Assembly (NCBI RefSeq): GCF_001571225.1
Contig: NZ_BCTJ01000024.1
Location: 1-64,000, forward strand
Length of the DNA: 64,000 nt
Reading direction: 5' to 3'
Source: Hydrogenophaga palleronii NBRC 102513
GTDB taxonomy: Bacteria; Pseudomonadota; Gammaproteobacteria; Burkholderiales; Burkholderiaceae_C
Part shown: positions 25,599 to 64,000 of the stretch, in pieces
Position numbering within the stretch: the stretch's first letter is position 1
Layout of the letters: every line of letters begins with the position of its first letter
Position numbers and translations under genes: made by a program
The notes under the pieces: generated by a model
Databases searched by the model: none
Told to the model about the DNA's origin: nothing
What the model saw: only the letters and a program-made list of their open reading frames with translations

Positions 25599-26375
25599 CT
25601 ATCCGGCCATGTGTGCTCCACCGTTCACCGAAAGATGCTGCCCCGTCACGTACGACCCCGCATCGCTCAGTAAAAATGCGATGGGTTGCACAGCCTCTTC
25701 CGCTTCGACGAAACGGCCCAGAGGGATGTTGGCCAGCATTTTTTCGCGAAACTTTTCGCCGCGGATGACTTCGGTCATCTCGGTAGCCACCACCCCGAAC
25801 GCGATGCTGTTGACCCGGATGCCATAGCGCCCCCATTCGCGCGCAGCGCTCATGGTGATGCCCAGAACACCCGCCTTCGCAGCACCGTAGTTCACCTGTC
25901 CGATCGTGCCCTTGCGCCCAGCGTCTGACGATATGTTCACGATGGCGCCCGGGGTTTTGTCGCCGGCCTCGGCGCGCCGTTTCATCTCAACGCCCACCAA
26001 CTGCAGGCAGTTGAAAACACCGGTCAGGTTGACGTCCATCACCTGGTGCCACTGCTCGGGTGTCATCTTGTCGATCATGGCCGCTCGCACGATGCCGGCG
26101 TTGTTCACCAGACCGTGCACGCCACCGAACCGCCGCGCCGCTTCGTCCACCACACCCTGGATCTGGTCACGATTCGTCACGCTCGCGGGCACAGCCAACA
26201 CCCGGTTCGCGTCGAACGCCTTCGCGGCTTCGGCGAGTTTGTCTTCGGATGCATCCACCAGCGTCAGCTGGGCGCCCAGTTCGTACAGCAGGTGGGCTGT
26301 CGCCAGACCGATCCCTTGTGCAGCACCGGTGATCAGCACGTTGCGACCCGTCATATCCAAAAGCTTTGCTGCCAT
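25599..26375 (-). CDS. Short-chain dehydrogenase/reductase (FabG-like)
   Basis: This 258-residue NAD(P)-dependent SDR has the cofactor motif TGAAQGIG, the NNAG motif, and the catalytic Ser-Tyr-Lys in NISSDAGRKG and NYGAAKAG. It ends LSVNGGAHMAG. It likely oxidises a 3-hydroxyacyl-CoA or a side-chain alcohol in the catabolic cluster. ATG 26375 has GAGGAA upstream. It is divergent from the TTT receptor gene at 26509, and the shared promoter region carries the 15-bp palindrome. It is the first clearly catabolic gene to the right of the transposon zone. Confidence 0.9.
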   Translation of the reverse strand: MAAKLLDMTGRNVLITGAAQGIGLATAHLLYELGAQLTLVDASEDKLAEAAKAFDANRVLAVPASVTNRDQIQGVVDEAARRFGGVHGLVNNAGIVRAAMIDKMTPEQWHQVMDVNLTGVFNCLQLVGVEMKRRAEAGDKTPGAIVNISSDAGRKGTIGQVNYGAAKAGVLGITMSAAREWGRYGIRVNSIAFGVVATEMTEVIRGEKFREKMLANIPLGRFVEAEEAVQPIAFLLSDAGSYVTGQHLSVNGGAHMAG

Positions 26376-26425
26376 GTGTTCCTCGTTGGTTGGTCTGAAC
26401 TTTTCCATCATCCGATAAAAATACA

Positions 26426-26440
26426 ATTGGATGGACCATT
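26426..26440. promoter_or_regulatory. Putative GntR operator, site 1
   Basis: ATTGGATGGACCATT (complement AATGGTCCATCCAAT) lies between the divergent SDR and TTT receptor genes. An extra half-site AACCATT follows at 26442-26448. It matches the AATGGT-NNN-ACCATT pattern shared by seven other promoters. Confidence 0.65.
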
Positions 26441-26508
26441 TAACCATTGTATTATCAACCAAAAACATGCATCATCCCCCCCGCCATCAACAGCCACCGG
26501 AGACATCC

Positions 26509-27477
26509 ATGCAACGAAGAACGATCCTGTCCACCCTCGCCCTGACACCCATGCTCGGGCACTTTTCCTCCGCCACCGCAGCAGAGTCGGCCGAGTCCTA
26601 TCCGTCCAAGCCGATCCGTCTGGTCGTCCCGTTCGCACCGGGCGGTCAGTTCGATGGCCTTGCGCGCCTGTTCGCCGAGAAGCTCTCGGCCAGCTGGAAG
26701 CAAACCGTCATCGTGGAGAACAAGACGGGTGCTGCCACGATGATTGGCGCGGCGTTCGTGGCCAAGTCACCTGGCGATGGCTACACCATCCTGTTCGGCG
26801 CCAGTGGTGTGGTGCAAAACCCTTCGCTGTATCCCAAGATGGGCTACGAAGCGTCCGAGCTCACACCGGTCGCTCGCATGCACGACATTCCGTTTTCGCT
26901 CGCGGTGCTCACGTCCTCGGGGGTGAACACGCTTGCAGAGTTCATCGCCAAGGCGAAAGCGGCCGACGGCAAACTGACCTACGGACAGATCTCCACCACC
27001 AGCCAGGCGCTCGGTGAAATCTTCCAGCAAAGTGCGGGCATCAAACTCGTCGGCATCCCGTACAAAGGCGAGGCCAACGCGGTCACCGATTTGCTGGGTG
27101 GTCAGATTGACGCCACCTTCGTGTCACCGGGTACCGCCGCCAACTACCCCAACAAAGTCAAAGTGCTCGCCATCACCGGCACCAAGCGCGTGGCGCGCCT
27201 GCCGGACGTGCCCACGTTCGACGAGGCCGGCATTACCACGCTGAAGCAATCGGGCTGGGGCGGCATCTTCCTGCCGTCCACCACGCCCCGCCCCATCGTG
27301 AACAAGTTGTCGGCCGAAATCGCGCGCATCGGCGTGCTGCCGGAGGTCGTGCAAAAGACCAACAACGCGGGCTACCCGGTCTCCGTCGCGGAGGCCCCGG
27401 AGTTCGAGCGCTTCGTGAACAGCGAATACGGCTACTGGCGCGACATTTTCAAGCGTTACAACATCAAGGCGGAATGA
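26509..27477 (+). CDS. Bug/TTT-family periplasmic solute receptor 1
   Basis: This 322-residue exported protein has a signal peptide (cleavage near SSATAAES). Tripartite-tricarboxylate receptor landmarks are YPSKPIRLVVPFAPGGQFDGLAR, the VENKTGAATMIGA region and the VGIPYKGEANAVTDLLGGQID binding loop. GGAGA lies upstream of ATG 26509. It heads the operon with the thiolase-like, DUF35, MaoC, synthetase and dehydrogenase genes, so it probably binds the pathway substrate or an intermediate. No TctA/TctB membrane partners are in the window. Confidence 0.9.
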   Translation: MQRRTILSTLALTPMLGHFSSATAAESAESYPSKPIRLVVPFAPGGQFDGLARLFAEKLSASWKQTVIVENKTGAATMIGAAFVAKSPGDGYTILFGASGVVQNPSLYPKMGYEASELTPVARMHDIPFSLAVLTSSGVNTLAEFIAKAKAADGKLTYGQISTTSQALGEIFQQSAGIKLVGIPYKGEANAVTDLLGGQIDATFVSPGTAANYPNKVKVLAITGTKRVARLPDVPTFDEAGITTLKQSGWGGIFLPSTTPRPIVNKLSAEIARIGVLPEVVQKTNNAGYPVSVAEAPEFERFVNSEYGYWRDIFKRYNIKAE

Positions 27478-27491
27478 GGCGGCGCACCGAC

Positions 27492-28661
27492 ATGAACCGT
27501 TCCGATGCTGCCGTCATCTCAGGCATTTACGAGATTCCCACCCGCCTCTCGCCCGACAAATCGATCGCCATGCTGCATGCCGAAGCCGCCCGAGGCGCGC
27601 TGGAGGATGCAGGGCTGACCCACCGCGACGTCGACGCCTACTTCTGCGCGGGCGACGCGCCCGGCTTTGGTCCGGTGTCGATGGCCGACTACATGGGTCT
27701 GAAGCTGCGGCACGCCGACTCGACGGAGTTCGGCGGCGCGTCCTACATCTCGCACGTGGCCCGCGCATCAGCCGCGATCGAATCGGGGCGCTGCAACGTG
27801 GCGCTCATCACGCTGGCGGGGCGCCCCCGTTCGGAGGGCCGCGCGGTGGGCACCACCGCGCGCACCGCTTCGCTGCAGGTGCCCGACACCGCCTATGAGA
27901 CGCCCTACAAGCCGAACGTGACCACGCTCTACGGCATGAGCGCGAAGCGGCACATGCACGAATACGGCACCACGAGCGAACAGCTGGCCTGGATCCGCGT
28001 GGCCGCTTCGCAACATGCGCAGCACAACCCGAACGCGCTGCTGCGCAAGCCCGTGTCGGTGCAGGACGTGCTTGAGTCGCCCATCGTGGCCGACCCGTTG
28101 CACCGACTGGACTGCTGCGTGGTGACCGACGGGGGTGGTGCCATCGTGGTCTCGCGCCGCGAGATCGCGCGCGACACCGGTCGCCAGCTGGTGGCCATTC
28201 GCGGCGCGGGTGACGCGATCTACCACCAGCAAGGTGGCGCCATCAACCTCACCACCACCGGCGCGGCCGCGTCGGGGCGGCTCGCGTTCGAACAGGCGGG
28301 CATCACCCCCGCCGACATTCAGTACGCGTCGATCTACGACAGCTTCACCATCACCGTGCTGCTGCAGATCGAAGACCTGGGCTTCTGCGCCAAAGGCGAC
28401 GGCGGCAAGTTCGTCGCCGACGGCAACCTCATCTCCGGCGTCGGCAAGCTGCCCTTCAACACCGACGGTGGCGGCCAGTGCAACAACCACCCGGCCAACC
28501 GGGGTGGCCTCACCAAAGTGATCGAGGCCGTGCGCCAGCTGCGTGGCCAGGCCCACCCTGCCGTGCAGGTGCCGAACTGCCAACTGGCGGTGGCGCAAGG
28601 CATCGGCGGTTGGGTCGGCTCTCGCCACGCCAGTTCCACTCTCATCATGGAGCGCCTCTGA
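27492..28661 (+). CDS. Thiolase-like protein (SCP-x/Ltp2 type), probable retro-aldolase
   Basis: This 389-residue thiolase-fold protein belongs to the SCP-x/lipid-transfer group. Where a normal thiolase carries its nucleophilic Cys, it has FGGASYISHVARA without Cys. The C-terminal motif is NTDGGGQCNNHPANRGGL. In steroid side-chain breakdown Ltp2 of this group pairs with a DUF35 protein and cleaves a beta-hydroxyacyl-CoA by retro-aldol reaction. The next gene here is exactly such a DUF35 protein. The same role is therefore inferred. An ATG at 27474 overlapping the receptor stop is an alternative start. Confidence 0.85.
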   Translation: MNRSDAAVISGIYEIPTRLSPDKSIAMLHAEAARGALEDAGLTHRDVDAYFCAGDAPGFGPVSMADYMGLKLRHADSTEFGGASYISHVARASAAIESGRCNVALITLAGRPRSEGRAVGTTARTASLQVPDTAYETPYKPNVTTLYGMSAKRHMHEYGTTSEQLAWIRVAASQHAQHNPNALLRKPVSVQDVLESPIVADPLHRLDCCVVTDGGGAIVVSRREIARDTGRQLVAIRGAGDAIYHQQGGAINLTTTGAAASGRLAFEQAGITPADIQYASIYDSFTITVLLQIEDLGFCAKGDGGKFVADGNLISGVGKLPFNTDGGGQCNNHPANRGGLTKVIEAVRQLRGQAHPAVQVPNCQLAVAQGIGGWVGSRHASSTLIMERL

Positions 28662-28662
28662 C

Positions 28663-29073
28663 ATGAGCACCCCTACGACAAATACCGCACCCACCGGCTA
28701 CGAAGCCATCCTCGCCGAGCAACCGGAATCGGCGCCCTACTGGAACGCCATCGGCCAAGGCGAACTGATGGTGAAGCAATGCGCCACGTGCGAGCGCTTC
28801 CACCACTATCCCCGCGCCATCTGCCCGCACTGCTTCAGCGACGACACGCGCTGGGTGCGCGCGGCGGGCAAGGGCGAGATCTACACCTTCAGCGTGATGC
28901 GGCGCGCCGAGGTGCCCTACGCCGTGGGCTACGTGATGCTGGACGAAGGCTGCGCCATGCTGACGAACTTCGTGGAATGCGACTTCGACGCACTGCACAT
29001 CGGCCAACGGGTGCAGCTGCGTTTCGAGCGCTGCGACCAGGGCCACGTGATGCCGGTGTTCACGCCCGACTGA
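28663..29073 (+). CDS. DUF35/OB-fold Zn-ribbon partner of the thiolase-like protein
   Basis: This 136-residue protein has an N-terminal helix and a rubredoxin-like zinc ribbon (CATCERFHHYPRAICPHC, CxxC-x13-CxxC with the YPR motif). The OB fold is ACP_beta-barrel type with GEIYTFSVMRRAEVPYAVGYV. It starts one base after the thiolase stop. Members form tight complexes with SCP-x-type thiolase-like proteins, so an aldolase complex is the likely unit. Confidence 0.9.
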   Translation: MSTPTTNTAPTGYEAILAEQPESAPYWNAIGQGELMVKQCATCERFHHYPRAICPHCFSDDTRWVRAAGKGEIYTFSVMRRAEVPYAVGYVMLDEGCAMLTNFVECDFDALHIGQRVQLRFERCDQGHVMPVFTPD

Positions 29074-29095: not shown

Positions 29096-29980
29096 ATGCC
29101 ATTGAACGCCTCTCTGCTGGTCCAGAAATCTTTTCCCGTCGTCGAACAACGCTACGGCCCGACCGACGCGATCCTGTATGCGCTTGGCCTGGGGCTGGGC
29201 CTGTCACCCACCTCGCCGCAAGAGCTGCCGTATGTGCTCGAAGATGCCGAGGGCCAGGTGCGCATGCTGCCAGCGATGGCCAGCGTGCTCGCTTTCCCAC
29301 CGCCCTGGGGCCAGGACCCGGCCATTGGCGCCGACTGGCGCCGCGTGGTGCACGCCGAGCAGCGGGTGGACTTCCACACGCCGCTGCCGCCGAACGCCAC
29401 CGTGCGCGCCGAGACGCGCGTGGAACGTGTGACCGACAAAGGACCGGGCAAAGGCGCGCTGGTGCAGGCCACCCGCTCGGTGCTGGACGCTGCCACCGGC
29501 CACACGATCGCCGACGTCACCATGCTGTCGCTAGCGCGCGGCGACGGGGGGTGCGGCCATGCCGAACGGCCCGACGCCGCCACCCTCGCCGATCTGCCCG
29601 ACGTGCCCGCGCGAGACGCCGACGGCAGCGTGGACATCCCCACCTCGGCGCAGGCAGCGCTGGTCTACCGGCTCAGCGGTGACCGCAACCGCTTGCACGC
29701 CGACCCGGCCACAGCAAAAGCCGCGGGCTTCGACCGACCGATCCTGCACGGGCTGGCCAGCTTCGGCATCGCCACGCACGGCCTCGTCCACCACGCGCTC
29801 GACGGCGACGCGTCGCGCCTGGCGTCGATCGGCTGCCGCTTCAGCGACGTGGTGTTCCCCGGTGAGTCGCTGCGCCTGGCGTACTGGCACGCACCGCAGG
29901 GGCTGCACTTCCGTTTGAGCGTGCCGGGCCGCAACACCGTCGCGCTGTCGCGCGGCTTCGCAGCCCTGCGCCTTCCCTGA
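29096..29980 (+). CDS. MaoC-type (double hot-dog) enoyl-CoA hydratase
   Basis: This 294-residue two-domain hydratase resembles the hydratase-2 unit of peroxisomal MFE-2. The hydratase-2 motif in the C-terminal hot dog is YRLSGDRNRLHADPATAKAAGF followed by RPILHGLASFG. The N-terminal half (GPTDAILYALGLGLG) is the catalytically inert half typical of the family. It would hydrate the enoyl-CoA made by the acyl-CoA dehydrogenases at 32160-34464, giving the substrate for the thiolase/DUF35 unit. Confidence 0.9.
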   Translation: MPLNASLLVQKSFPVVEQRYGPTDAILYALGLGLGLSPTSPQELPYVLEDAEGQVRMLPAMASVLAFPPPWGQDPAIGADWRRVVHAEQRVDFHTPLPPNATVRAETRVERVTDKGPGKGALVQATRSVLDAATGHTIADVTMLSLARGDGGCGHAERPDAATLADLPDVPARDADGSVDIPTSAQAALVYRLSGDRNRLHADPATAKAAGFDRPILHGLASFGIATHGLVHHALDGDASRLASIGCRFSDVVFPGESLRLAYWHAPQGLHFRLSVPGRNTVALSRGFAALRLP

Positions 29981-30030: not shown

Positions 30031-32163
30031 ATGACCTCCTCCCCTCACCCTCTCGCCTCCCGTGCGGTGCTCAGCCCCACCTCGATCGCCGTGATCGGCG
30101 CCTCGTCCGATGCCGAGCGCATCGGCGGCATCCCCATTGCCAACCTGCTCTCGCAAGGCTTTGCGGGCGACATCTGGCCGGTCAACCCCAGCCGCGACAC
30201 GGTGCAGGGCTTGCGCAGCTTCGCCTCGGTGGATGCACTGCCCGGCGCGCCCGAAGCGGCCATCGTCGCCGTGCCGGCCGACCTGGCCGTGGCGGCCGTG
30301 GAAGAACTGGCGCGCATCGGCACGCGTTCGGCCATCGTCTTCTCCGCCGGGTTCGCCGAGACCGGCGAGCGCGGCATCGCCATGCAAGCGCAAATGGCCG
30401 ACGCCGCGCGCGAGCACGGCATGCGGCTGTTCGGGCCGAACACCATCGGCCTGTTCAACGCGCACGCGAACTACTACCCCTTCTTCACCACGGCGTTCGA
30501 ACGCGGCTTTCCGCGCGGCGGGCGCGTGGGCATTGCCAGCCAGTCGGGTGCGTTCGGCTCGCAGATCTTCAACATCGCGCGCAACCGCCGCATCGGCACA
30601 CCCATCTGCATCACGACCGGCAACGAGGCGGACGTGACCATCGGCGAGGCCATCGGCTGGCTGGCCGAAGACGACAACATCGATGTCATCGTCGCCTACC
30701 TCGAAGGCCTGCGCGAACCCGAGAAATTCCTCGCGGCACTGGAGACCGCGCGGCGCGCGCGCAAGCCCGTCATCGTGCTCAAGGCAGGACGCAGCGTGCT
30801 GGGTGCCAGCGCGGTTCAATCGCACACCGCGTCGATCGCCGGTGACGACAAGTTGTTCGACGTGACGCTGTCGGAGCTGGGTGCGGTCCGCGTCGAGCAC
30901 GTGGAGGAAATGCTGGACGTGGCCCATGTCGCGACCCGCCGCATCTTCCCGGTCAGCGGCACACTCGGCGCCCTCACCCTCAGCGGCGGCGCGGGCATCC
31001 AGATCAGCGACGCCGCCGAAAAATACGGGCTGGACATGCCCCAGCTCGACCCGGACGCACAGGCCGAACTCAAGCGCTTGCTGCCCATCGCATCGCCCGT
31101 CAACCCGATCGACATCACCGCGCAATCGCTGAACAACATGGGCGTGGTCGCCGAGTTCGCGAAGGTGGTGGCCGAGCGCGGCAACTACGCGGCCATCGTG
31201 GCCTACCTCGCCGGCGTGGGCGGGTCGGCCAAAAAAGGGCCAGAGCTGCAGAAGACCTTTGGCGATGTGGCGCGCGCCCACCCGGACCGGCTGTGGGCCA
31301 TGCTCACCACTGCCGAGCCCCACCACATCGAGGCGTTCGAGCGCGAAGGGCTGCTGGTGTTTGAAGAGTCGGCGCGCGCGGTGAACGCGATCGCGGCCAT
31401 GAGCCGACTGGGGCAAGCGTTCGCTCGCCCGACTGCTGTCGAGCCGGCGCCCCTGCCAGGCCCGGCTCTGTCGGCGAAGGCCCCCAACGAAGCCGAGGCC
31501 AAGGCCTGGCTGTCCAGCCATGGCATTGCGGTGACGCAGGAACGCGTGGTGAGCACCGAAGACCTGGCCGTGCAAACCGCACTCGAATTCGGCTATCCGG
31601 TGGTGTTGAAGATCGTGTCGCCCGACATCCTGCACAAGTCGGAGGTCAACGGCGTGAAGCTGAACCTGCGCGACGACGAAGCGGTGCGCTTGGCCTATCG
31701 CGAGATCCTCGCGTCGGTGGCGCAGGCCCGGCCCGACGCCCGCATCGAGGGCATTCTGGTCGCGCGCCAGGTGGAGAACGCCGTCGAGTGCCTCATGAGC
31801 ATCCACCGCGATCCGCAGCTGGGCTTGTTCGCCGCGTTCGGCCTGGGCGGCATCTACGTCGAGATCCTGAAGGACGTCGCGTTTGCCCGTTGCCCGTTCG
31901 ACGAAACGCGGGCCGAGGCGTTGATCCGCAGCATCCGCTGCATCGGTCTTCTCACTGGCGCGCGCGGTCGTCCTTCTGTCGACGTGCCGGCCTTGGCGCG
32001 CACGCTGTCGCGCCTCTCGCACATCGCGCACCAGCACGGCGAGCGCCTGCAATCGATCGAACTCAACCCGGTGCTGGCGCTGCCGGAGGGCCAGGCACCC
32101 GTGGCCGCCGACGCGCTGATCGAACTGCTGAGCGCGCCCGGCGCTGAAGGACAGCCTGCATGA
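30031..32163 (+). CDS. Acyl-CoA synthetase, NDP-forming (fused alpha-beta)
   Basis: This 710-residue ADP/GDP-forming acid-CoA ligase has the CoA-binding domain first (SIAVIGASSDAERIGG, about residues 18-33). The succinyl-CoA-ligase-like domain follows with the phospho-His265 in AVQSHTASIAG. The C-terminal ATP-grasp part (from about residue 490) contains VVLKIVSPDILHKSEVNGVK. It would activate a carboxylic acid intermediate to its CoA ester. Using this ligase type in place of an AMP-forming ligase is less usual in aromatic or steroid clusters. The stop overlaps the next start by four bases. Confidence 0.92.
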   Translation: MTSSPHPLASRAVLSPTSIAVIGASSDAERIGGIPIANLLSQGFAGDIWPVNPSRDTVQGLRSFASVDALPGAPEAAIVAVPADLAVAAVEELARIGTRSAIVFSAGFAETGERGIAMQAQMADAAREHGMRLFGPNTIGLFNAHANYYPFFTTAFERGFPRGGRVGIASQSGAFGSQIFNIARNRRIGTPICITTGNEADVTIGEAIGWLAEDDNIDVIVAYLEGLREPEKFLAALETARRARKPVIVLKAGRSVLGASAVQSHTASIAGDDKLFDVTLSELGAVRVEHVEEMLDVAHVATRRIFPVSGTLGALTLSGGAGIQISDAAEKYGLDMPQLDPDAQAELKRLLPIASPVNPIDITAQSLNNMGVVAEFAKVVAERGNYAAIVAYLAGVGGSAKKGPELQKTFGDVARAHPDRLWAMLTTAEPHHIEAFEREGLLVFEESARAVNAIAAMSRLGQAFARPTAVEPAPLPGPALSAKAPNEAEAKAWLSSHGIAVTQERVVSTEDLAVQTALEFGYPVVLKIVSPDILHKSEVNGVKLNLRDDEAVRLAYREILASVAQARPDARIEGILVARQVENAVECLMSIHRDPQLGLFAAFGLGGIYVEILKDVAFARCPFDETRAEALIRSIRCIGLLTGARGRPSVDVPALARTLSRLSHIAHQHGERLQSIELNPVLALPEGQAPVAADALIELLSAPGAEGQPA

Positions 32164-34587: not shown

Positions 34588-35469
34588 ATGCAGTTCATCG
34601 ACTTGGCTTCTATTCTGTCCATCACCCAGCTTGCCAACGCACTGGCGCTCGCCTCGCTGCTGACGATTTTGGCCAGCGGACTGGCGCTGATCTTTGGCTT
34701 GCGCGACGTGATGAATTTCGGGCACGGCGCTTTCTACATGTTGGGCGCCTATTTGGGCTATTCGATCGGCGCACGACTGGGCTTCTGGATGGCGATGCTG
34801 CTGGTGCCCACGCTGCTCGCCGTGGTGGGCGTGGTGTTTGAAGTTGCACTGCTGAGGCCATTGCAGAAGCGCTCGCACATGGACGTAGCCTTGATCACCT
34901 TTGGCGTGGCGCTCATCGTAGGCCCGACGATCATCCAGATATGGGGTGCAACACCTTTGACCGTGGCGGTGCCCGATGTGCTGTCTGGCTCTGCATCGCT
35001 CATGGGTGAGCCGTATCCGATATACCGCTTGTTTCTGATCGCAGCAGGGTTCAGCACGTGTCTCGCACTGGCAGCCTGGCTGCGCTGGACGACCAGCGGC
35101 ATGTATGTGCGCGCAGTGAGCCAGCAGCCACACGTCGCTCGCATGATGGGCGTGAACACCGATCGCTTGAGCCTGCTGGTGGTCTGCCTCGGTACGGGCT
35201 TCGCCGGCCTGGCTGGCGTTCTTGCGGGGCCCTACCTGTCGGTCGAACCTTCCATGGGGGCCAGCTTCCTCATCACCTGTTTGATCATTGTGGTTGTGGG
35301 TGGACTCGGCAGCATTGGCGGCGCGATCGTGGCCGCGCTGGTGTACGGGTTCATTCAGGTCATCGGCAGCGTGGTAGTGCCATCGCTCGCTGCTTTGGCA
35401 CCGTATCTGTTGCTGTTCATCGTGCTTCTCTGGCGGCCGCAAGGATTCGGCCGAGGCCGCGTGGCCTGA
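34588..35469 (+). CDS. Branched-chain amino acid-type ABC permease (LivH-like)
   Basis: This 293-residue permease has about eight membrane helices and the motif LRDVMNFGHGAFYMLGAYLG, plus GVNTDRLSLLVVCLGTGFAGLAGVLAG. ATG 34588 is chosen over an in-frame TTG 15 bases earlier. It begins a full five-gene HAAT importer, probably for the cluster's growth substrate rather than an amino acid. The base composition of this importer block looks less GC-rich than the flanking catabolic genes. Confidence 0.92.
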   Translation: MQFIDLASILSITQLANALALASLLTILASGLALIFGLRDVMNFGHGAFYMLGAYLGYSIGARLGFWMAMLLVPTLLAVVGVVFEVALLRPLQKRSHMDVALITFGVALIVGPTIIQIWGATPLTVAVPDVLSGSASLMGEPYPIYRLFLIAAGFSTCLALAAWLRWTTSGMYVRAVSQQPHVARMMGVNTDRLSLLVVCLGTGFAGLAGVLAGPYLSVEPSMGASFLITCLIIVVVGGLGSIGGAIVAALVYGFIQVIGSVVVPSLAALAPYLLLFIVLLWRPQGFGRGRVA

Positions 35470-55945: not shown

Positions 55946-57619
55946 ATGATTGAAGAGACACCCGTCCTGATTGTTGGCGGCGGGCCCGTGGGCCTGGCGC
56001 TGGCCGGTGACCTGGGCTGGCGCGGCGTGAAGAGCACGCTGATCGAGAAGAGCGACGGCATCATTGCCCAGCCGCGCATGGACATGGTGGGCATTCGCAG
56101 CATGGAGTTTTGCCGCCGCTGGGGCATCGTGCCCTGGGTCGAGGCCGCGGGCTACAACCGCGACTACCCGCAAGACTGCGCCTGGGTCACCGACCTCAAC
56201 GGCTACGAGTTCGGCCGCGAATTTTTCCCCTCGCCCGCCGCCGAAAAAGCGCCGCCGCACAGCCCGCAAAAGCGCGAGCGCTGCCCGCAGAACTTCTTCG
56301 ACCCGGTGCTCGCACGCTTCGCCAAAAGCACCCAGCTCGCAGATCTGCGCTACCGCAGCACCCTCGAATCGTTTGTGGACCATGGCGACCACATCATCGC
56401 CACCGTGAACGACGAAGCCGCCGGCACGCAGCGCCAGATCCGCGCGCGCTACCTGGTCGGCTGCGACGGCGGCGCGAGCACGGTGCGCAAAGGCATGGGC
56501 ATTCGCATGGACGGCGACGGTGTGCTCACGTACACCACGAACGTGATCTTTCGCTGCGACGGGCTGGAGAAGCTGCACAAAATGCAGCCCGCATACCGCT
56601 ACATCTTTATCGGCCCCGAAGGCACCTGGGCCACTCTGGTGGCGATCAACGGCCGCGACCAGTGGCGTTTCTCGCTCGTAGGCGACGGCGAAAAGCGCGA
56701 CCTCACCGAGGCCGATCTGCGCAGCGCCATCGTGCGCGCGGTCGGGCGCGAGTTCGATTTCGACATTCTTTCCGTGCTGCCATGGATCCGCCGCCAGCTC
56801 GTGGCCGACCACTACCGCAAAGGCAACGCCTTCATCGCAGGCGACGCAGCGCATCTCACCTCGCCCACCGGCGGTTTCGGCATGAACACCGGTCTGCTCG
56901 ACGTGGTGAACCTGAGCTGGAAGATTGCGGGCGTGCTGCAGGGCTGGGGCGGCGAACACCTGCTCGACAGCTACGAAGCCGAGCAGTACCCCGTGGCCGT
57001 GCGCAACGTGACCGAGGCCGGCGAGAACCTGCGCCGCATGCTCTCGCCGCGCGTGCTGCGCCCCGACGCTGCGGCCTTCGACACCAGCAGCCCGAACTTC
57101 GAGCAAGCCCGCAAAGAGTATGGCGACCGCTACACCGAGATGATGAAGCGCGAGTGGTTCTCGGTCGGCATCCACCTCGGCTATGTGTATGAGAACTCGC
57201 CGATCGTCGTACCCGACGGCACGCCCGCGCCGGTCAACCAGGTGTCGCGCTACGTGCCCACCGCGCGCCCGGGTTCGCGTGCGCCGCACGTCTGGCTGAC
57301 GCCGGAACAGTCGACGCTGGACCTGTTCGGACGTGAATTTGTTCTGCTGCGCTTTGGTGCCGAGCCGGTGCCGGTGCAAGCCCTAATCGAAACGGCGGCG
57401 CGCGTCGGTCTGCCACTAAAGGTCTTGGACATCGACCACGCCGAAGCGGCGACGCTCTACGAGAGCCGTCTGGTGCTGGTGCGGCCCGATGGCTCTGTGG
57501 CCTGGCGCGCAGACGTCTTGCCGGCCGATGCGCAACGCATTGTCGACACCGCGCGTGGCGCCGTGAGCCCGGTGCCCGAACAACTCGAGCGCCGCGAATA
57601 CGAACTCGCCGAGGCTTGA
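55946..57619 (+). CDS. FAD-dependent aromatic hydroxylase (phenol hydroxylase-like group A)
   Basis: This 557-residue flavin monooxygenase has the dinucleotide motif VLIVGGGPVGLALAGDLG. The DG motif is VGCDGGASTVRKGMG, and the second FAD motif is GDAAHLTSPTGGFGMNTGL. A thioredoxin-like C-terminal region of about 150 residues is typical of the MhpA/TfdB/PheA group. It would hydroxylate a phenolic ring ahead of the dioxygenase encoded two bases downstream, for example to give a gentisate-type hydroquinone acid. It begins a five-gene operon. Confidence 0.9.
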   Translation: MIEETPVLIVGGGPVGLALAGDLGWRGVKSTLIEKSDGIIAQPRMDMVGIRSMEFCRRWGIVPWVEAAGYNRDYPQDCAWVTDLNGYEFGREFFPSPAAEKAPPHSPQKRERCPQNFFDPVLARFAKSTQLADLRYRSTLESFVDHGDHIIATVNDEAAGTQRQIRARYLVGCDGGASTVRKGMGIRMDGDGVLTYTTNVIFRCDGLEKLHKMQPAYRYIFIGPEGTWATLVAINGRDQWRFSLVGDGEKRDLTEADLRSAIVRAVGREFDFDILSVLPWIRRQLVADHYRKGNAFIAGDAAHLTSPTGGFGMNTGLLDVVNLSWKIAGVLQGWGGEHLLDSYEAEQYPVAVRNVTEAGENLRRMLSPRVLRPDAAAFDTSSPNFEQARKEYGDRYTEMMKREWFSVGIHLGYVYENSPIVVPDGTPAPVNQVSRYVPTARPGSRAPHVWLTPEQSTLDLFGREFVLLRFGAEPVPVQALIETAARVGLPLKVLDIDHAEAATLYESRLVLVRPDGSVAWRADVLPADAQRIVDTARGAVSPVPEQLERREYELAEA

Positions 57620-57620: not shown

Positions 57621-58664
57621 ATGGACAACATTTCCGAAGAAAGCGCCGCCCGGCGGCGCGAGCTCAAGGAACACCTGGCGCGCTTCAACTGCCGCGTGCA
57701 CCAGGCTGGCGACCCGCCTTTCTTCACGCGCGAACCCAAGCCCGACATGCAATCGGTGCACTGGCGCTGGAGCGATCTGCAGCCGCTGCTTGAGCGCATC
57801 GGCCACGAGGTCGACCTCGCGGCCGCGGGGCCACGGCGTACGCTGCGGCTGCACAACCCGGGGCTGGCGGTGGGCACCACGCACACGTTCTGGGGTTCGA
57901 TCCAGGTGATCCTGCCCGGCGAGGTGGCCACCGCGCACCGCCATAGCGCCAGTGCGCTGCGCTTCATCATGAAGGGCCAAGGCGCGTGGACCACGGTGGA
58001 GGGCGAGTGCTACCCGATGGCCGAGGGCGACCTCGTACTCACACCGGCCTGGACCTGGCACGACCACGTCCACAAAGGCGATGAGCCAATGGTCTGGCTC
58101 GACGTGCTCGACATCTCGCTCATGAAGTCGATGGAAGCCACGTTTTTCGAGCCCTATGCAGGCGACGTGCAACCTGTGCACACGCTGCCCGACAGCAGCT
58201 GGCGCGCGTTCGGCAGCGGCCTGATGCGTCCACCGGGCGCGAAACCTGCCACTGTGAACCCGTTGCTGGCCTACCCATTCGGCATGGCGGAGACCGCGCT
58301 GAACGCCGCCGCCGGACTGCCCGCCGACCCGTGCGACGACGTGATTCTGGAATACCAGAACCCGACCGATGGCTCACCGGCCATGCGCACGCTGGGCATG
58401 CAACTGCAGTTGCTGCGCGCCGGCTTCAACGGACAGCGCCGGCGCCACACGGGCAGCAAGCTGTACTACGTGGTGCGTGGCCAAGGCGTCACCACGGTGG
58501 AACAGGAGCGCTACGAGTGGTCGCAAGGCGACTTCATGGTGATCGCGCCTTGGGCGTGGCATCAACATCAGAACAACACCTCGCAGGACGCGATGCTGTG
58601 GCAAGTCAACGACCTGCCCACGCTCAAGCTGCTGCACTACTTCCGGGAAGAATTCCAACCATGA
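57621..58664 (+). CDS. Gentisate 1,2-dioxygenase-like bicupin
   Basis: This 347-residue protein has two cupin domains. The first carries EVATAHRHSASALRFIMKGQG and LTPAWTWHDH, with the iron-binding His set. The second carries RRRHTGSKLYYVVRGQGVTTVE and IAPWAWHQH. This matches gentisate and 1-hydroxy-2-naphthoate dioxygenases, which open a ring bearing adjacent carboxyl and hydroxyl groups. The next gene is an FAH-family hydrolase, the usual follower. The exact substrate is not known. Confidence 0.9.
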   Translation: MDNISEESAARRRELKEHLARFNCRVHQAGDPPFFTREPKPDMQSVHWRWSDLQPLLERIGHEVDLAAAGPRRTLRLHNPGLAVGTTHTFWGSIQVILPGEVATAHRHSASALRFIMKGQGAWTTVEGECYPMAEGDLVLTPAWTWHDHVHKGDEPMVWLDVLDISLMKSMEATFFEPYAGDVQPVHTLPDSSWRAFGSGLMRPPGAKPATVNPLLAYPFGMAETALNAAAGLPADPCDDVILEYQNPTDGSPAMRTLGMQLQLLRAGFNGQRRRHTGSKLYYVVRGQGVTTVEQERYEWSQGDFMVIAPWAWHQHQNNTSQDAMLWQVNDLPTLKLLHYFREEFQP

Positions 58665-59548
58665 AAATCGCCAGCTTCAATGACTTCCGCATCGGCATCG
58701 TCGAAGACGGGCAACTGTTCGACATCACCTCGGTGGTGCCGGCCGCGTTCGATGCCTTGCCACAGCAACGCCTGAACTGGCTGATCGCGCAGTGGGCACA
58801 GGCGCTGCCCGCTGCACAGGCAGCGCGCGCCAGCGTATCGCCAGTCGCGCTTGCCAGCGTGCAATTGCTGGCGGCCACGCCCTGCCCCCCGCATGTGTTC
58901 GCCGCTCCGGCCAACTACCGCAAACACCTCGGCGAACTCGGCGACCGCACCGTGACAAAGAAGGGCCGCAGCGCGCGCGAGCAGGGCTTCTTCCTCAAGG
59001 CGCCCGCGTCGGTCGTCGGCGCGGGCGGGGCGATCTTCGTGCCCAAGGGCTCTGCGCGGCGCTTCGACCACGAGTCCGAACTGGCCGTGATCATCGGCAA
59101 GGGCGGGCGCGACATTCCGCGCGCGAAGGCCATGGAACACGTGTTCGGCTATGCCTGCCTGCTCGACGCCACCATGCGCATTGAAAAGGACACTTTCGAA
59201 GAAGAGCGTTCCATGCGCAAGTCCTTCGAGGGCTTCACACCGGTGGGGCCGTACATCGTCACCGCCGATGAGGTGCCCGACCCGGCGAATCTCGCCAACC
59301 GCCTGTGGGTGAACGGCGAGCTGCGCCAGGAAGCCAACACCAGCGAGATGATCGTGGACATTCCAGAACTCATCGAACTGATCTCGTCCGTGCTGCCGCT
59401 GGTGCCAGGCGATTTGATCGCCACCGGCACACCCGAAGGCGTGGGGCCGTTCGCGGCGGGCGACACGGTCACCATCGAGATCGAGGGCGTGGGCCGGCTC
59501 AGCATGCCGGTGCGCGAGCGCGAGCACGTTTCGCCGCGCGCTTACTGA
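58661..59548 (+). CDS. Fumarylacetoacetate hydrolase (FAH) family protein
   Basis: This 295-residue FAH-fold hydrolase has FAAPANYRKHLGELG, the metal-ligand acids in RRFDHESELAVIIGK and FGYACLLDAT, and the terminal GDLIATGTPEGVGPF loop. It would cleave the ring-opening product, as fumarylpyruvate or maleylpyruvate hydrolase does. Its ATG overlaps the dioxygenase stop by four bases. Confidence 0.92.
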   Translation: MKIASFNDFRIGIVEDGQLFDITSVVPAAFDALPQQRLNWLIAQWAQALPAAQAARASVSPVALASVQLLAATPCPPHVFAAPANYRKHLGELGDRTVTKKGRSAREQGFFLKAPASVVGAGGAIFVPKGSARRFDHESELAVIIGKGGRDIPRAKAMEHVFGYACLLDATMRIEKDTFEEERSMRKSFEGFTPVGPYIVTADEVPDPANLANRLWVNGELRQEANTSEMIVDIPELIELISSVLPLVPGDLIATGTPEGVGPFAAGDTVTIEIEGVGRLSMPVREREHVSPRAY

Positions 59549-59559: not shown

Positions 59560-60696
59560 ATGGGCCAGCGATACCGCGCCGCCTTCATCCGTGGCGGCAC
59601 CAGCAAGGCGATCGTCTTCCGTCTCGAAGACCTGCCCGCCGACCGCGCTGCATGGGACGCCATCTTCCTGCGCGCCATGGGCACGCCCGACCGCTATGGC
59701 CGCCAGCTCAATGGCATGGGGGGCGGCGTGTCTTCTTTGTCCAAGGTCTGCGTGGTCGGGCCGGCGACGGTGGAAGGCGCCGATGTGGACTACACCTTCG
59801 CGCAGGTGCAGATCCGCGAGGCGCGGGTCGACTACAGCGGCAACTGCGGCAACATGTCGTCGTCCATCGGCCCGTTTGCGATCGACGAACGCCTGCTGCC
59901 CACGCCGCCTGATGGCCCCATCTGCGTGCGCATCCACAACACCAACACGCGCAAGATCATCCACGCGCATTTCGAGGTACGCGATGGGCAATCGGTGGAA
60001 GCCGGCACGTTGGAGATTCCCGGTGTCGACGGTCCGGGCGCGCCGGTGCGGCTGGACTTTCTCAGCCCGGGTGGCGCGTCCACGGGTCGCTTGCTGCCCA
60101 CCGGGTCACCGCTGGATGAACTGCAAACAACCGCACTCGGCGCCACGCGTGCGTCGCTCGTCGACGCCGCCAACGCCTGCGTGTTCGTGCCGGCGGCGGC
60201 AGTAGGCCTGGTCGGTACCGAGTTGCCCGACGAGATCGCCGCGCACCCGACGGCGCTGGAACAGTTGAAGCAACTGCGCCTGGCGGCTTCGGTCGCGATG
60301 GGCATTTCGGCATCGCTCGAAGAAGCCGCGGCGAAGCCGATGATTCCGCTGATCGCGATCGTGAGCCCGCCCGCCGACAGCATCACGCTCGATGGCGAAC
60401 GCATCGCCGCGTCGCAGGTCGACCTGGTGGTGCGCATGATCTCCAGCGGCCAGCCGCACCGGGCGCTGCCACTCACAGGTTCGCTGTGCACCGCCGTGGC
60501 GATGCAGATCGAAGGCACCGTGGTGCATGAGGCGGCGCGCGCTGAGCGCGATGCCACCGCATTGCGCCTGGCCATGCCCTCGGGCGTGCTCACCGTGGCC
60601 GCGAAGGTGAGCCACGGCGCCAGCGGCTGGCATGCCGATTCCGGTTGTTTCTACCGCACCACGCGGCGCTTGTTCGATGGCCATGTCTACGCCTGA
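59560..60696 (+). CDS. PrpF-like isomerase/tautomerase
   Basis: This 378-residue protein of the PrpF family (two diaminopimelate-epimerase-like folds) begins with YRAAFIRGGTSKAIVFRLEDLP. It includes DYSGNCGNMSSSIGPFA, where a Cys-Gly-Asn motif supplies the likely catalytic Cys. Relatives isomerise aconitate (PrpF) or oxalomesaconate (GalD). In a ring-cleavage operon it probably isomerises a double bond of the acyclic product. It lies 11 bases after the FAH gene. Confidence 0.9.
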   Translation: MGQRYRAAFIRGGTSKAIVFRLEDLPADRAAWDAIFLRAMGTPDRYGRQLNGMGGGVSSLSKVCVVGPATVEGADVDYTFAQVQIREARVDYSGNCGNMSSSIGPFAIDERLLPTPPDGPICVRIHNTNTRKIIHAHFEVRDGQSVEAGTLEIPGVDGPGAPVRLDFLSPGGASTGRLLPTGSPLDELQTTALGATRASLVDAANACVFVPAAAVGLVGTELPDEIAAHPTALEQLKQLRLAASVAMGISASLEEAAAKPMIPLIAIVSPPADSITLDGERIAASQVDLVVRMISSGQPHRALPLTGSLCTAVAMQIEGTVVHEAARAERDATALRLAMPSGVLTVAAKVSHGASGWHADSGCFYRTTRRLFDGHVYA

Positions 60697-61840
60697 ACCC
60701 ACCGCACCACGCCGGCCACTGACCGGTGTTCGCGTGCTGGACTTCAGCATGTTCATGGCAGGTCCGTATTGCACGCGCTACCTCGCCGACCTCGGCGCGG
60801 ACGTGATCAAGGTCGAACCCGTCGAGGGCGACAACCTGCGCCATTCCACACCGCAGCGTGACGGTTGCAGCAGCTACTTCGGCCACATCAACGTCGGCAA
60901 GCGCAGCGTGGTGATCGACCTGAAAACCGAGCAGGGACTGCAGCATGCGCGCCGCCTCGCCCGTGAGGTCGATGTGATCGTGGAAAACGGCAGACCCGGC
61001 ACAATGCAGCGCTTCGGGCTCGACCACGCGAGCTTGCGCAAGGCGCGCCCCGCGCTCATCTACTGCTCGATTTCGGGCTACGGCCAGGAGGGCCCGGGCG
61101 CGCACCAGCCCGCGTTTGCGCAAACCATGCACGCTGCCTCGGGCCTGGACCTCGCCTTCGCGGGCTACCAGGATGGCGAACGCCAGCAACCACCGAACAC
61201 AGGCATCTTCACGGCCGACATCCTGGCCGGTCTACATGCCTTCAGCGGCGTTCTCACCGCGCTCTACGACCGCGAACGCACCGGCCACGGTCAGTTCGTC
61301 GACGTGTCCCTGCTAGACGGCATGCTTAACTTCCTGCCCTACGAAGTGCAGGAAGCGCAGTTTCCAAGCGCCACACGCCGCCCGGTCTACAAACCCATGC
61401 GCACGCGCGACGGCCATGTGATGCTTGGACTCATCACACAGAAGAATTTCGAGGCCATGTTCGAGCTCATGGGCCACCCCGAGTTCATGGCGGACACGCG
61501 TTACGCCACACCCGCAGCGCGCGCACAGCACTGGGATGCGCTGATGGACTCCATCCAGGACTGGACCACACAACACAGCAGCGCGAACTGCGTGGAGCGA
61601 GTGTCTCAGGCCGGCATTCCCGGCACGACCTACCACACTGTGGCCGAGGTGATTCGCGATCCACAGGTAGCATTTCGCGGCAGCTTGTCGACGGTGAGCG
61701 ACCGTGCGGGTGAGTTCCAGGTGACCAACCTGCCATTCAAGCTCTCCGGCGCGGAGACCCGCTCTTCCGGGCGCGTGCCAGCGCTCGGCGAGCACACCGA
61801 TCAGGTGTTGGGCGACAGCGGATCAACGCCATCGTCCTGA
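60683..61840 (+). CDS. Class III (CaiB/BaiF-type) CoA-transferase
   Basis: This 385-residue family III CoA-transferase has LTGVRVLDFSMFMAGPYCTR and the nucleophilic Asp in GIFTADILAGLHAF. GADVIKVEPVEGDNLR and RSVVIDLKTEQG match the family. The racemase His/Asp pair is absent, so it is a transferase rather than an AMACR. The start is tentative (60677 or 60683), inside the PrpF gene end. It is the last gene of the ring-cleavage operon. Confidence 0.9.
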   Translation: MSTPEPTAPRRPLTGVRVLDFSMFMAGPYCTRYLADLGADVIKVEPVEGDNLRHSTPQRDGCSSYFGHINVGKRSVVIDLKTEQGLQHARRLAREVDVIVENGRPGTMQRFGLDHASLRKARPALIYCSISGYGQEGPGAHQPAFAQTMHAASGLDLAFAGYQDGERQQPPNTGIFTADILAGLHAFSGVLTALYDRERTGHGQFVDVSLLDGMLNFLPYEVQEAQFPSATRRPVYKPMRTRDGHVMLGLITQKNFEAMFELMGHPEFMADTRYATPAARAQHWDALMDSIQDWTTQHSSANCVERVSQAGIPGTTYHTVAEVIRDPQVAFRGSLSTVSDRAGEFQVTNLPFKLSGAETRSSGRVPALGEHTDQVLGDSGSTPSS

Positions 61841-61849: not shown

Positions 61850-62827
61850 TCACTCGAGGGTGACGCCCGCCGCCTTCACCTGCTCGGCCGTGAGGCGGCT
61901 CTCATCCTGGATCACGCGGCGCAACTGCGCCGCGTCGCCCGCCACCACAGTCAGCCCTTTGGCGGTGACCTGCTTCTCGGCAAACGAAGGATCCGTGAGC
62001 ACCGAGCGCACGTCGGCATGAATCTTCGCGATCACCGCAGCGGGCATGCCGGCAGGTGCGAACAGGCCGTACCAGATCGAGGTCTTCACATAGGGGTAGC
62101 CCTGCTCCGTGCTGGTGGCGGTCTGGCCGTACTGCACCATGCGCGACGCACCGGCCACCGCAATCGGCTTGATCTTGCCCGCCGCGATCAACGGCCCGGC
62201 CACGGCCGCGCTGCCCGTGCCCAGCATCACCTCGCCGCCCGCCAGCGCGGTAAGCATGGGCGTCACGCCTTTGTAGGGCACGTGCAGCAGCTTCACGCTC
62301 TCGCGCGCGCCGATGGTTTCGAACAACAAGTGTGGCTGGCTGCCGTTGCCGAACGACCCGTAGGTCAGGCCGCCTGGTTGGCGGCGCGCGGCCTCGACCA
62401 CGTCCTTCAAGGTATTGCCCGGAAAGGTCGAACTGGCGATCACCATCTGGTCGCTGTTCACCATCAGGGTGATCGGCTCGAAGCTCTTGTCCGGATCGTA
62501 CGGCAGCGAGCGGTAGAGGAACCGGTTGCTCACCAGCGTCTGGTTGACGGTGGCCAGCAGCGTGTAGCCGTCGGGCGCGGCCTTGGCTACCGCCTCGGCG
62601 CCGATCAACGAGCCCGCACCCGCGCGGTTCTCGATCACCACGGGCTGCTTCCAGCGCGTGGACAACTCGGTCATCACCGAGCGCGTGAGCACGTCAATGC
62701 CGCCACCGGGCGCAAACGGCACGATGATGCGCACGGGCTTGTGCGGCCAGTCGGTGGTCTGGGCGGTGGCGTTGGCGGCGGACAGCGCGGCGAGGGCCGC
62801 GCACAGAAGAACGCGTCTGGTCTGCAT
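61850..62827 (-). CDS. Bug/TTT-family periplasmic solute receptor 4
   Basis: This 325-residue exported receptor has a signal peptide ending near ANATAQTT. Features are PVRIIVPFAPGGGIDVLTRSVM, the ENRAGAGSLIGAEAVAKAAPDG segment and LLHVPYKGVTPMLTALAGGE. It is more distant from receptors 2 and 3. It converges on the CoA-transferase (nine-base gap) and diverges from the lyase gene, with a palindrome in between. Confidence 0.9.
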   Translation of the reverse strand: MQTRRVLLCAALAALSAANATAQTTDWPHKPVRIIVPFAPGGGIDVLTRSVMTELSTRWKQPVVIENRAGAGSLIGAEAVAKAAPDGYTLLATVNQTLVSNRFLYRSLPYDPDKSFEPITLMVNSDQMVIASSTFPGNTLKDVVEAARRQPGGLTYGSFGNGSQPHLLFETIGARESVKLLHVPYKGVTPMLTALAGGEVMLGTGSAAVAGPLIAAGKIKPIAVAGASRMVQYGQTATSTEQGYPYVKTSIWYGLFAPAGMPAAVIAKIHADVRSVLTDPSFAEKQVTAKGLTVVAGDAAQLRRVIQDESRLTAEQVKAAGVTLE

Positions 62828-62866
62828 GGGAAATGTCTCGATTTCTGTGGATGGAATGCTTATGAT

Positions 62867-62881
62867 ATAGGCCCTACCATT
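62867..62881. promoter_or_regulatory. Putative GntR operator, site 8
   Basis: ATAGGCCCTACCATT lies between TTT receptor 4 and the lyase gene. The right half ACCATT is perfect and the left half is weak. Confidence 0.5.
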
Positions 62882-62911
62882 GGACATCAATACCTTTAAT
62901 TCCACGCTGCC

Positions 62912-63811
62912 ATGAGTCCTCCCACTTCGCTGCTCGACCTCCTGCAACCGGGTGCCGGCACCGTGATCCCTGGTGCGTTCAACGCGATGACGGCACGCAT
63001 GATCGAATCGGCCGGCTTCCCGGTCGTCTACCTCACCGGCGCGGGCATCACCAACGGCCACCTGGGCGCGCCCGACCTGGGCCTGATTACCGCCACCGAA
63101 ATGGCGACCCAAATCGCCGCTTGTCGTGACGCGGTGCGCGTGCCACTCATCGCCGATGGCGACACCGGGTTTGGCAACGCCCTCAACCTCGTGCGCACGG
63201 TGCACCTCTACGAGCGCGCGGGCGCCAACGCAATCCAGCTGGAGGACCAGGTGTTTCCCAAGCGCTGCGGCCACTTCGACGGCAAGGGTGTGGTACCCCT
63301 GTACGAGATGGTGCAGAAGATCCACGCGGCCGTGGACGCACGCCGTGATGCGGGTTTTCTGGTGATTGCGCGCACCGACGCGCGCGCCGTGGAAGGCTTC
63401 GACGCGGCTCTGGAACGCGCCGCGCGCTACCGAGAGGCCGGTGCGGACGTGTTGTTCGTGGAAGCACCGCAGACCGAAGACGAGTTGCGCGCCATCCCGC
63501 GCGCCCTGCCCGGCCCGCACCTGTGCAACATCGTGCACGGTGGCAAGACGCCCATGCTGCCGCAGCAGACGCTGGCCGCCATGGGCTTCGGCGGCATCCT
63601 GTACGCCAACGCGGCCTTGCAGTCCGCCATGCTGGCGATGTCGCGCACGCTGGCGCATTTGAAAAGCGTGGGCTCGCTCGAAGGCGCACAAGACCAGCTC
63701 ATTGGCTTCGCGCAGCGCCAGGAAATCGTCGATTTCGATCATTGGACCGGGCTTGATCGCAAATACGCACAACTGACGTCCTCACCCGCACCAGCAAAAC
63801 CACAGCCATGA
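62912..63811 (+). CDS. Isocitrate lyase/PEP mutase family protein
   Basis: This 299-residue protein has the barrel motifs PGAFNAMTARMIESAGF, LIADGDTGFGN with metal-binding Asp, QLEDQVFPKRCGH, and IARTDARAVEG. The KRCGH loop, with its catalytic Cys, is typical of 2-methylisocitrate lyase-like lyases and related oxaloacetate or methylmalate lyases. It would split a C4-C7 hydroxy di- or tricarboxylate from late in the pathway. Confidence 0.9.
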   Translation: MSPPTSLLDLLQPGAGTVIPGAFNAMTARMIESAGFPVVYLTGAGITNGHLGAPDLGLITATEMATQIAACRDAVRVPLIADGDTGFGNALNLVRTVHLYERAGANAIQLEDQVFPKRCGHFDGKGVVPLYEMVQKIHAAVDARRDAGFLVIARTDARAVEGFDAALERAARYREAGADVLFVEAPQTEDELRAIPRALPGPHLCNIVHGGKTPMLPQQTLAAMGFGGILYANAALQSAMLAMSRTLAHLKSVGSLEGAQDQLIGFAQRQEIVDFDHWTGLDRKYAQLTSSPAPAKPQP

Positions 63812-64000
63812 GCACCGCCGCCAAGATGCGCGCCTGGATGCCCCAGCCCGCAAGCGTTCAGGCCGTGGAAGAGCAAGGCGAACGGATCGACGTTCCCCAT
63901 GACGGTGGCTTCGTGTGCTGGCGCCGCTTCGGCGAAGGTTCGCCGCTGGTGCTGCTGCACGGCGGCCACGGCAGCTGGATGCATTGGCTGCGCAACATCC
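63808..64000 (+). CDS. Alpha/beta hydrolase, partial (runs off the right edge)
   Basis: About 64 residues are visible. WRRFGEGSPLVLLHGGHGSWMHWLRNI contains the oxyanion-hole HGG-type motif that precedes the nucleophile elbow in alpha/beta hydrolases. The ATG overlaps the lyase stop (ATGA). The nucleophile, acid and His lie beyond the window. A role as an ester or C-C hydrolase in the same pathway is likely. Confidence 0.8.
   Translation, partial: MSTAAKMRAWMPQPASVQAVEEQGERIDVPHDGGFVCWRRFGEGSPLVLLHGGHGSWMHWLRNI

Follow-up and report, generated by a model that had tools for sequence, protein, structure and literature searches.

A Putative Catabolic Gene Set of the Window

The window analysed here is a 64,000-nucleotide stretch of the Hydrogenophaga palleronii NBRC 102513 genome (contig NZ_BCTJ01000024.1, positions 1 to 64,000 of the forward strand), and its subject is the catabolic gene set beginning at position 25,599, in which predicted side-chain enzymes are found together with predicted ring enzymes. 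Genes were called using GC3 scoring and lists of start codons, and their start positions are approximate. Pfam scans covered 40 open reading frame (ORF) translations of the window and 10 more, some of the ORFs being alternatives without a family match. All enzyme classes named for 25.6-64 kb in an earlier reading of the sequence (the original prediction) were recovered at or close to the positions given there, the alpha-methylacyl-CoA racemase by its match to the Mycobacterium tuberculosis enzyme (MCR) and the others by Pfam. The same prediction regarded the route as complete, which was not borne out, since no aldehyde dehydrogenase was detected among the ORFs scanned by family.

Predicted Side-Chain and Ring Enzymes

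The putative side-chain genes include one for a thiolase-fold lyase (27474..28661, forward strand; NF006010, 666.7 bits, cut-off 462), in which a Gly is aligned to the nucleophilic Cys of the acetyl-CoA acetyltransferase 7yvy. A Claisen thiolase was rejected for this protein, as it has no nucleophilic Cys. The bile acid aldolase CtSal likewise has Gly in place of Cys, and PMC12329534 gives the motifs of Ltp2 and Sal as YDHF (together with a second catalytic Tyr, Tyr344) and YDCY, respectively. The motif of the lyase, YDSF, is neither of these; its Tyr is common to the aldolases Sal and Ltp2 as that text describes them, and no Tyr is aligned to the Ltp2 Tyr344 position. Judged from these sequence features, the 27474 protein is likely a retro-aldol lyase. 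In a set of 110 loci with a lyase match, including the window copy and a few identical rows, YDSF was present in 99 of the 99 matches of at least 60% identity (window copy included), and the 11 matches below 60% comprised 2 with YDSF and 9 with YDAF.

The lyase gene is followed on the forward strand by genes for a stand-alone DUF35/ChsH2-C partner (28663..29073; Pfam) of 136 amino acids with a C4 zinc motif, a MaoC hydratase (29096..29980; Pfam; YRLSGDRNRLHADP) that joins two hotdog domains in a single protein and carries a hydratase-2 motif, and an NDP-forming acyl-CoA ligase (30031..32163; Pfam ATP-grasp_5 and Succ_CoA_lig). Next come two acyl-CoA dehydrogenases (ACADs), one PimC-like (32160..33332; TIGR03204, 403.7 bits against a cut-off of 623.85) and its PimD-like partner (33337..34464; TIGR03203, 158.9 bits against 652.7). 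The racemase gene (53461..54624, forward strand) stands apart from this block. Its product aligned to MCR as the best match (E value 2e-94) over residues 2-350 of 387, and its GHD and GDF motifs coincide in the alignment with those of MCR, in which they supply the catalytic His and Asp, respectively. These matches support the racemase assignment, which fits an alpha-methylacyl-CoA substrate. A second candidate racemase, the formyl-CoA-transferase-like class III CoA transferase (43612..44916, reverse strand), was rejected because it lacks the GHD His and its nearest solved protein is YfdW (E value 2e-82).

The ring genes FMO-GDO-FAH-PrpF-CoAT3 form a forward-strand block (55946-61840) with intergenic gaps of -20 to 11 bases. 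The FAD ring hydroxylase (FMO, 55946..57619) scored 662.6 bits with NF004780 (cut-off 445); RebC was the first of its nearest solved proteins, and the others included 2-hydroxybiphenyl 3-monooxygenase. The gentisate-type cupin dioxygenase (GDO, 57621..58664) was far under the gentisate 1,2-dioxygenase cut-off (TIGR02272, 266.5 against 442.1 bits) and keeps the first-cupin His motifs, which have a metal role, as HRHS (106) and WHDH (146) in alignments to 2d40 and 3bu7. Two more GDO-like genes (34% identity) occur in the same genome. An FAH-family hydrolase (58661..59548; Pfam) is followed by a PrpF-family isomerase (59560..60696), for which the nearest solved protein was 3-methylitaconate isomerase (3g7k) and the TIGR02334 model of the PrpF 2-methylaconitate isomerase gave 302.3 bits, missing the cut-off of 440.55. 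The block ends with a class III CoA transferase (CoAT3, 60677..61840; Pfam; 51% identity in the RUBRI1 and Sagittula loci described below). Farther along the forward strand, a PEPM/ICL-family C-C lyase (62912..63811) has as nearest solved proteins the petal death protein and then methylisocitrate lyase; despite its KRCGH motif, it missed the cut-off of TIGR02317 (methylisocitrate lyase PrpB, 268.3 against 354.4 bits), and three other matches to it, one of them partial, were found in the same genome. That GDO, PrpF, the ICL-type lyase, and the PimCD-like pair all score under curated cut-offs would fit another substrate than those of the modelled enzymes.

A FAD_binding_2 dehydrogenase (FAD2, 51732..53153, reverse strand; Pfam) is the candidate ring dehydrogenase. 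Its nearest solved protein is the flavocytochrome c3 fumarate reductase; the substrate Arg/His residues of that enzyme are not kept in two low-identity alignments, and a fumarate reductase seems rather unlikely. A C-terminal Tyr is invariant in 7/7 rows. The best NCBIfam model was TcuA (164.3 bits, under the cut-off of 369), and the scores with the ChcC1 and ChcC2 models were weak (64.2 and 66.5 bits). Relatives of FAD2 occur near FMO in other genomes, adjoining it in Variovorax (60%), at 2 kb in R. gallicum (55%), and at 7 kb in Paraburkholderia (46%). In R. gallicum and in Variovorax, the plasmid has a pair of dissimilar FAD_binding_2 genes near FMO, along with short-chain dehydrogenases (SDRs) and a Liv-type transporter (L153 23748-27377; L154 18472-22992).

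Further families are annotated around related FMO and cupin genes: MmgE/PrpD, PrpF, and PrpB around the FMO of Variovorax VAI-C, PrpB and PrpF in the Sagittula ring locus, and LeuCD adjoining a cupin and FAH gene in B. guangxiense. Alkylated malates, maleates, or aconitates are the substrates of the PrpF, PrpB, PrpD, and LeuCD families, and these neighbours would fit an alkylated ring-cleavage product.

Linkage in Other Genomes

A contig scan confirmed at least 580 relatives of the lyase, of which the best 80 were kept as loci; 37 of the 80 are at least 20 kb long, and the FMO, GDO, and racemase counts apply to the sequence stretch examined per locus. Among the loci kept, the closest lyase (80% identity; other loci at most 71%) belongs to a metagenome-assembled genome, RUBRI1, and is the sister of the window lyase in a quickly built 110-row tree (SH-aLRT support 98). 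At this locus, L031, relatives of FMO, GDO, FAH, TctC, the lyase, DUF35, and the ligase lie inside 10 kb, and relatives of the racemase and of the ACAD pair (58 and 39%) are located upstream on the same contig, as two RUBRI1 stretches overlap by 3,041 identical bases. The identities amounted to 80% for the lyase, 74% for FMO, 73% for FAH, 69% for GDO, 67% for the ligase, and 60% for the racemase.

Gene sharing was counted with 31 of 36 protein queries, to the exclusion of LivM, LivK, and TctC 2-4, at a threshold of at least 40% identity. Relatives of 13 of the 31 genes are found within about 57 kb of one 518-kb RUBRI1 contig, and the counts for other loci were 7 (Paraburkholderia), 7 (Sagittula), 6 (R. 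gallicum), 5 (Variovorax), 1 (B. guangxiense), and 1 (G239). Eight comparison stretches gave 3, 2, 4, 1, 0, 0, 0, and 0; the four zero counts come from congeners (18-19 kb each), and the count of 4 from a 60-kb stretch elsewhere in RUBRI1 chosen for its PrpF. These stretches have unequal lengths (18-78 kb), and several were chosen for holding one family, so the comparison is not a formal test.

Plasmids of Paraburkholderia (there with a P450) and Sagittula have the ring set again but no lyase, and in Sagittula and Variovorax the ring set is accompanied by PrpF and ICL-type genes; the parts are therefore modular. The Paraburkholderia P450 is 44.5% identical to that of the window; it adjoins a relative of the ferredoxin reductase, and some 20 kb separate it from the FMO of that plasmid. 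Searches for FMO orthologs, which scored up to three candidates per genome, returned 12 of 399 genomes of the order at E<=1e-100, the best other FMO (60%) adjoining a GDO of just about 30%, and 1 of 398 genomes of the phylum at E<=1e-130, namely the genome of the window itself. Among the 80 lyase loci, a GDO match was found in one, L031, and a racemase relative (49-62%) in six (L045, L065, L069, L097, L108, and L110).

A second lyase/DUF35/MaoC set is present in the genome of the window (68, 48, and 42%; contig C2, L134 11643-15661), and lyases from this genome and its congeners reach at most 68-69% identity to the window lyase. Loci L044 and L103 come from metagenome-assembled genomes titled Klebsiella pneumoniae. 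In the lyase tree, however, L044 pairs with a Betaproteobacteria metagenome-assembled genome, whereas L103 groups with members of the genus of the window, and the titles therefore look doubtful.

Neighbouring Genes and Boundaries of the Region

The remaining genes encode putative uptake, oxidation, and regulatory functions. SDR1 (25599..26375, reverse strand; Pfam adh_short_C2) and the TctC/Bug binding protein 1 (26509..27477, forward strand; Pfam TctC) precede the lyase gene, and each has a relative of 59% identity in the RUBRI1 region. On the forward strand, the ACAD pair is followed by a Liv-type ABC uptake system (LivHMGF and a binding protein, 34588..39268), SDR2 (39270..40115), a zinc-type alcohol dehydrogenase (ADH, 40112..41059), a 2Fe-2S ferredoxin (41117..41446; Fer2), and a ChrR-like cupin (41479..42048; under the gathering score), all assigned by Pfam. 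On the reverse strand lie a ferredoxin reductase (42390..43598), a cytochrome P450 (44922..46145), SDR3 (46162..46959), a glutathione S-transferase (47029..47673), the TctC/Bug binding protein 2 (47689..48669), and an enoyl-CoA hydratase/isomerase (49018..49800; ECH_1), likewise assigned by Pfam. The P450 has the heme motif FGYGFHQCLG, and a simple I-helix pattern was unmatched; in the plasmid collection, 9 of the 12 rows listed for it are from Streptomyces (42-47% identity). Further Pfam assignments are an SMP-30/gluconolactonase-like protein (49905..50753, forward strand; SGL), a GntR/FCD regulator (50746..51657, reverse strand), and the TctC/Bug binding proteins 3 (54677..55657) and 4 (61850..62827), both on the reverse strand. 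By strand, 26509-42048 reads forward and 42390-48669 in reverse; mixed strands then precede the forward ring block.

The left boundary of the variable region is a tRNA-Ser(TGA) gene (21450..21537, forward strand), detected using ARAGORN. The alignment to congeners ends exactly at 21537, the end of this gene, in 5/5 congener stretches, and beyond it the only similarity detected consisted of two short, weak matches in a single one of the five. Two transposase genes come after the tRNA gene, flanked by a 30-base inverted repeat (97%; 21671-21700 and 23113-23142). A 69-base repeat of 81% identity links window positions 21532-21600, starting in the last six bases of tRNA-Ser, with contig positions 70055-70123. 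It contains a terminator-like hairpin and may be an old copy of the attachment site or merely a similar terminator; the region is therefore called an island only provisionally. Exact copies of stretches of the tRNA gene, 12 bases or longer, were not found elsewhere on the contig, which measures 71,431 bases. The end of the window truncates the gene set, the next gene being that of an alpha/beta hydrolase (contig 63808-64695), followed by two HipA-like genes. These two HipA_C-domain genes lie on opposite strands (contig 64643-68984), directly past the catabolic block.

Proposed Route and Alternatives

The observed families, key motifs, and linkage in a second genome suggest, on balance, that the putative catabolic island encodes one route for a ring compound with an alpha-methyl-branched acyl side chain. 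With each step and the order of steps taken from enzyme family and genomic context, the substrate would be taken up by the Liv-type ABC and TctC proteins, hydroxylated by the P450 with its ferredoxin and reductase, oxidised by ADH and SDR enzymes, and activated to its CoA ester by the NDP-forming ligase. The racemase would epimerise the alpha-methyl centre, the PimCD-like pair would introduce the alpha,beta-double bond, and the MaoC protein would hydrate it. The YDSF thiolase-fold protein with DUF35 may then perform a retro-aldol cleavage, yielding propionyl-CoA (if the methyl group is on the alpha carbon) and a ring ketone or aldehyde. FAD2 might dehydrogenate, and perhaps aromatise, an alicyclic ketone; FMO would hydroxylate the ring and the gentisate-type dioxygenase open it. 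Hydrolysis by the FAH protein would give an oxoacid and an alkylmaleate, the latter to be resolved by the PrpF isomerase, the class III CoA transferase, and the PEPM/ICL lyase.

The substrate was originally predicted to be aromatic or terpenoid; this may be so, and an alicyclic ring aromatised en route is also conceivable. Substrates of the p-menthane, bisabolane, tocopherol-like, 2-arylpropionate, and alpha-methylcinnamate types were considered, and the sequence does not separate them. A gentisate-type enzyme needs a carboxyl beside the hydroxyl, which a bare p-menthane would not supply. A more specific version is offered tentatively: in one aerobic route, so far undescribed, a retro-aldol module that resembles the steroid one and contains a new YDSF lyase subtype would remove an alpha-methyl side chain, the ring being alicyclic and terpenoid-like. 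The FAD_binding_2 dehydrogenase would aromatise the ring ketone, hydroxylation and gentisate-fashion cleavage would follow, and the PrpF isomerase, CoA transferase, and ICL-type lyase would dismantle the alkylmaleate.

Several findings weigh against a single route. Apart from the window, RUBRI1 was the only case observed in which the lyase accompanies ring genes, and FMO of at least 50% identity occurs in one of the 80 lyase loci, L031, with 37 of the 80 being 20 kb or longer. The Paraburkholderia, Sagittula, R. gallicum, and Variovorax stretches are without the lyase, and GDO is just 26-28% identical in the last two. Relatives of the P450, ferredoxin, reductase, ADH, Liv, FAD2, PrpF, and ICL genes were not found in the RUBRI1 region, and its SDR1, MaoC, and CoAT3 relatives are situated farther off, close to another copy of the lyase (66%), and may belong to a different gene set. 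The PrpF and ICL relatives of RUBRI1 are on another contig than the lyase region; contig C4 (L139 7866-19856) carries an ICL-like gene (47%), a Liv-type ABC system, a FAD_binding_2-like gene (26%), and a PrpF-like gene (52%), with no FMO in the stretch. FAD2 scores higher with tricarballylate dehydrogenase/flavocytochrome c models than with cyclic-ketone dehydrogenases. According to PMC12329534, Cys304Ser in the YDCY motif abolishes the activity of CtSal, so YDSF need not denote an aldolase.

One explanation of such findings, possible though doubtful, is that two or three independent operons with different substrates are stacked here: a lyase operon for branched acyl-CoA that includes a transporter (26-42 kb), an operon for the P450 system (42-49 kb), and an operon for the ring (50-64 kb). 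The blocks are indeed separate and on both strands, the presence of four TctC proteins hints at multiple uptake systems, four plasmid stretches from named organisms have the ring set but no lyase, and 79 of the 80 lyase loci have no FMO of at least 50%. Against this, RUBRI1 groups the lyase, ligase, racemase, ACAD pair, and FMO-GDO-FAH in about 57 kb, and the window racemase, a side-chain enzyme, adjoins the ring genes. One linked route is considered more likely than stacked operons because the side-chain and ring genes are linked again in RUBRI1 and the ring set recurs elsewhere, a judgement that rests on one second genome and partial repeats. The side-chain and ring parts, originally predicted to form one combination, thus probably belong together.

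It is unlikely, although compatible with the other readings, that PrpF, FAD2, the CoA transferase, and the ICL-family lyase function in a side route for tri- or dicarboxylates of the tricarballylate or methylcitrate type, leaving just FMO-GDO-FAH to act on a ring. The TcuA model as the best for FAD2 and the adjoining FAD2 and PrpF relatives of RUBRI1 contig C4 favour such a side route, whereas the FAD2 relatives adjoining or near FMO in Variovorax and R. gallicum, the absence of the fumarate-reductase substrate residues in two alignments, and the overlapping or almost abutting GDO, FAH, PrpF, and CoAT3 genes speak against it. A known route in disguise, whether for the steroid C3 side chain, ibuprofen (ipf), or 3-hydroxybenzoate/gentisate, appears very improbable. 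The order of ACAD pair, hydratase, and Cys-less aldolase with DUF35 is that of steroid C3 removal (PMC8399759), and a CoA ligase and a retro-aldolase yielding propionyl-CoA also occur in ipf (PMC9195938). In the window, however, hydratase and DUF35 are unfused, the lyase motif is different, neither a ring-hydroxylating nor an extradiol dioxygenase was detected among the ORFs scanned, and GDO is far under the gentisate cut-off in a genome with two other GDO-like genes.

The prediction that the gene set is undescribed agrees with the open-licence literature searched, in which no matching cluster was found (most subscription papers were outside its scope). The set is a new combination assembled from known modules. 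It points to a family of ring modules in which FMO is combined with a cupin, gentisate-type or other, and with FAH, often also with FAD2, PrpF, and an ICL-type lyase. Such modules were met on Paraburkholderia, Variovorax, Rhizobium, and Sagittula plasmids, and no assigned substrate was found for them. The set also points to a lyase subtype, marked by YDSF and associated with DUF35, that is frequent, with at least 580 relatives in the contig scan. Once the substrate of one such cluster is established, many others could be annotated more easily, and it could be seen whether a single pathway links the aldolytic loss of a side chain to ring opening of the gentisate type.

Comparison with Known Systems

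The 3-hydroxybenzoate/gentisate pathway (mhb) comprises a flavin hydroxylase, a cupin dioxygenase, and an FAH-type hydrolase, as in the window, where the dioxygenase differs by its low gentisate score and PrpF, CoA transferase, and ICL-type lyase genes adjoin. The end steps of nicotinate fermentation employ 3-methylitaconate isomerase and 2,3-dimethylmalate lyase, enzymes of the PrpF and PEPM/ICL families acting on alkylated C4 diacids; in the window, a dimethylmaleate hydratase was not seen among the scanned ORFs, and oxygenases stand upstream. Aromatisation of cyclohexanecarboxylate (Chc) relies on a P450, SDR, and FAD_binding_2 dehydrogenase set, also present here, where FAD2 is weak on the ChcC1 and ChcC2 models and ring opening would be of the gentisate type.

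Steroid and gentisate clusters were compared through publications and family models, and the contrast with them drawn in the original prediction is tentative. The side-chain part is no plain copy of the steroid one. Steroid C3 removal (Ltp2 with ChsH1-ChsH2; Sal2 in Proteobacteria) resembles the proposed route, according to PMC8399759 and PMC12329534, in its heteromeric ACAD, MaoC hydratase, Cys-less thiolase-fold aldolase with DUF35, and release of propionyl-CoA. In that system, DUF35 is fused to a MaoC hydratase subunit (PMC8399759), whereas the window has a free DUF35 protein, a hydratase made of one two-hotdog protein, and the YDSF lyase motif. Steroid ring genes were not seen among the scanned window ORFs. 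The ibuprofen ipf system of Sphingomonadaceae is alike in using a CoA ligase and a retro-aldolase on a 2-arylpropionate with formation of propionyl-CoA; according to PMC9195938, a ring dioxygenase and then extradiol cleavage follow, whereas the window encodes FMO and a gentisate-type enzyme.

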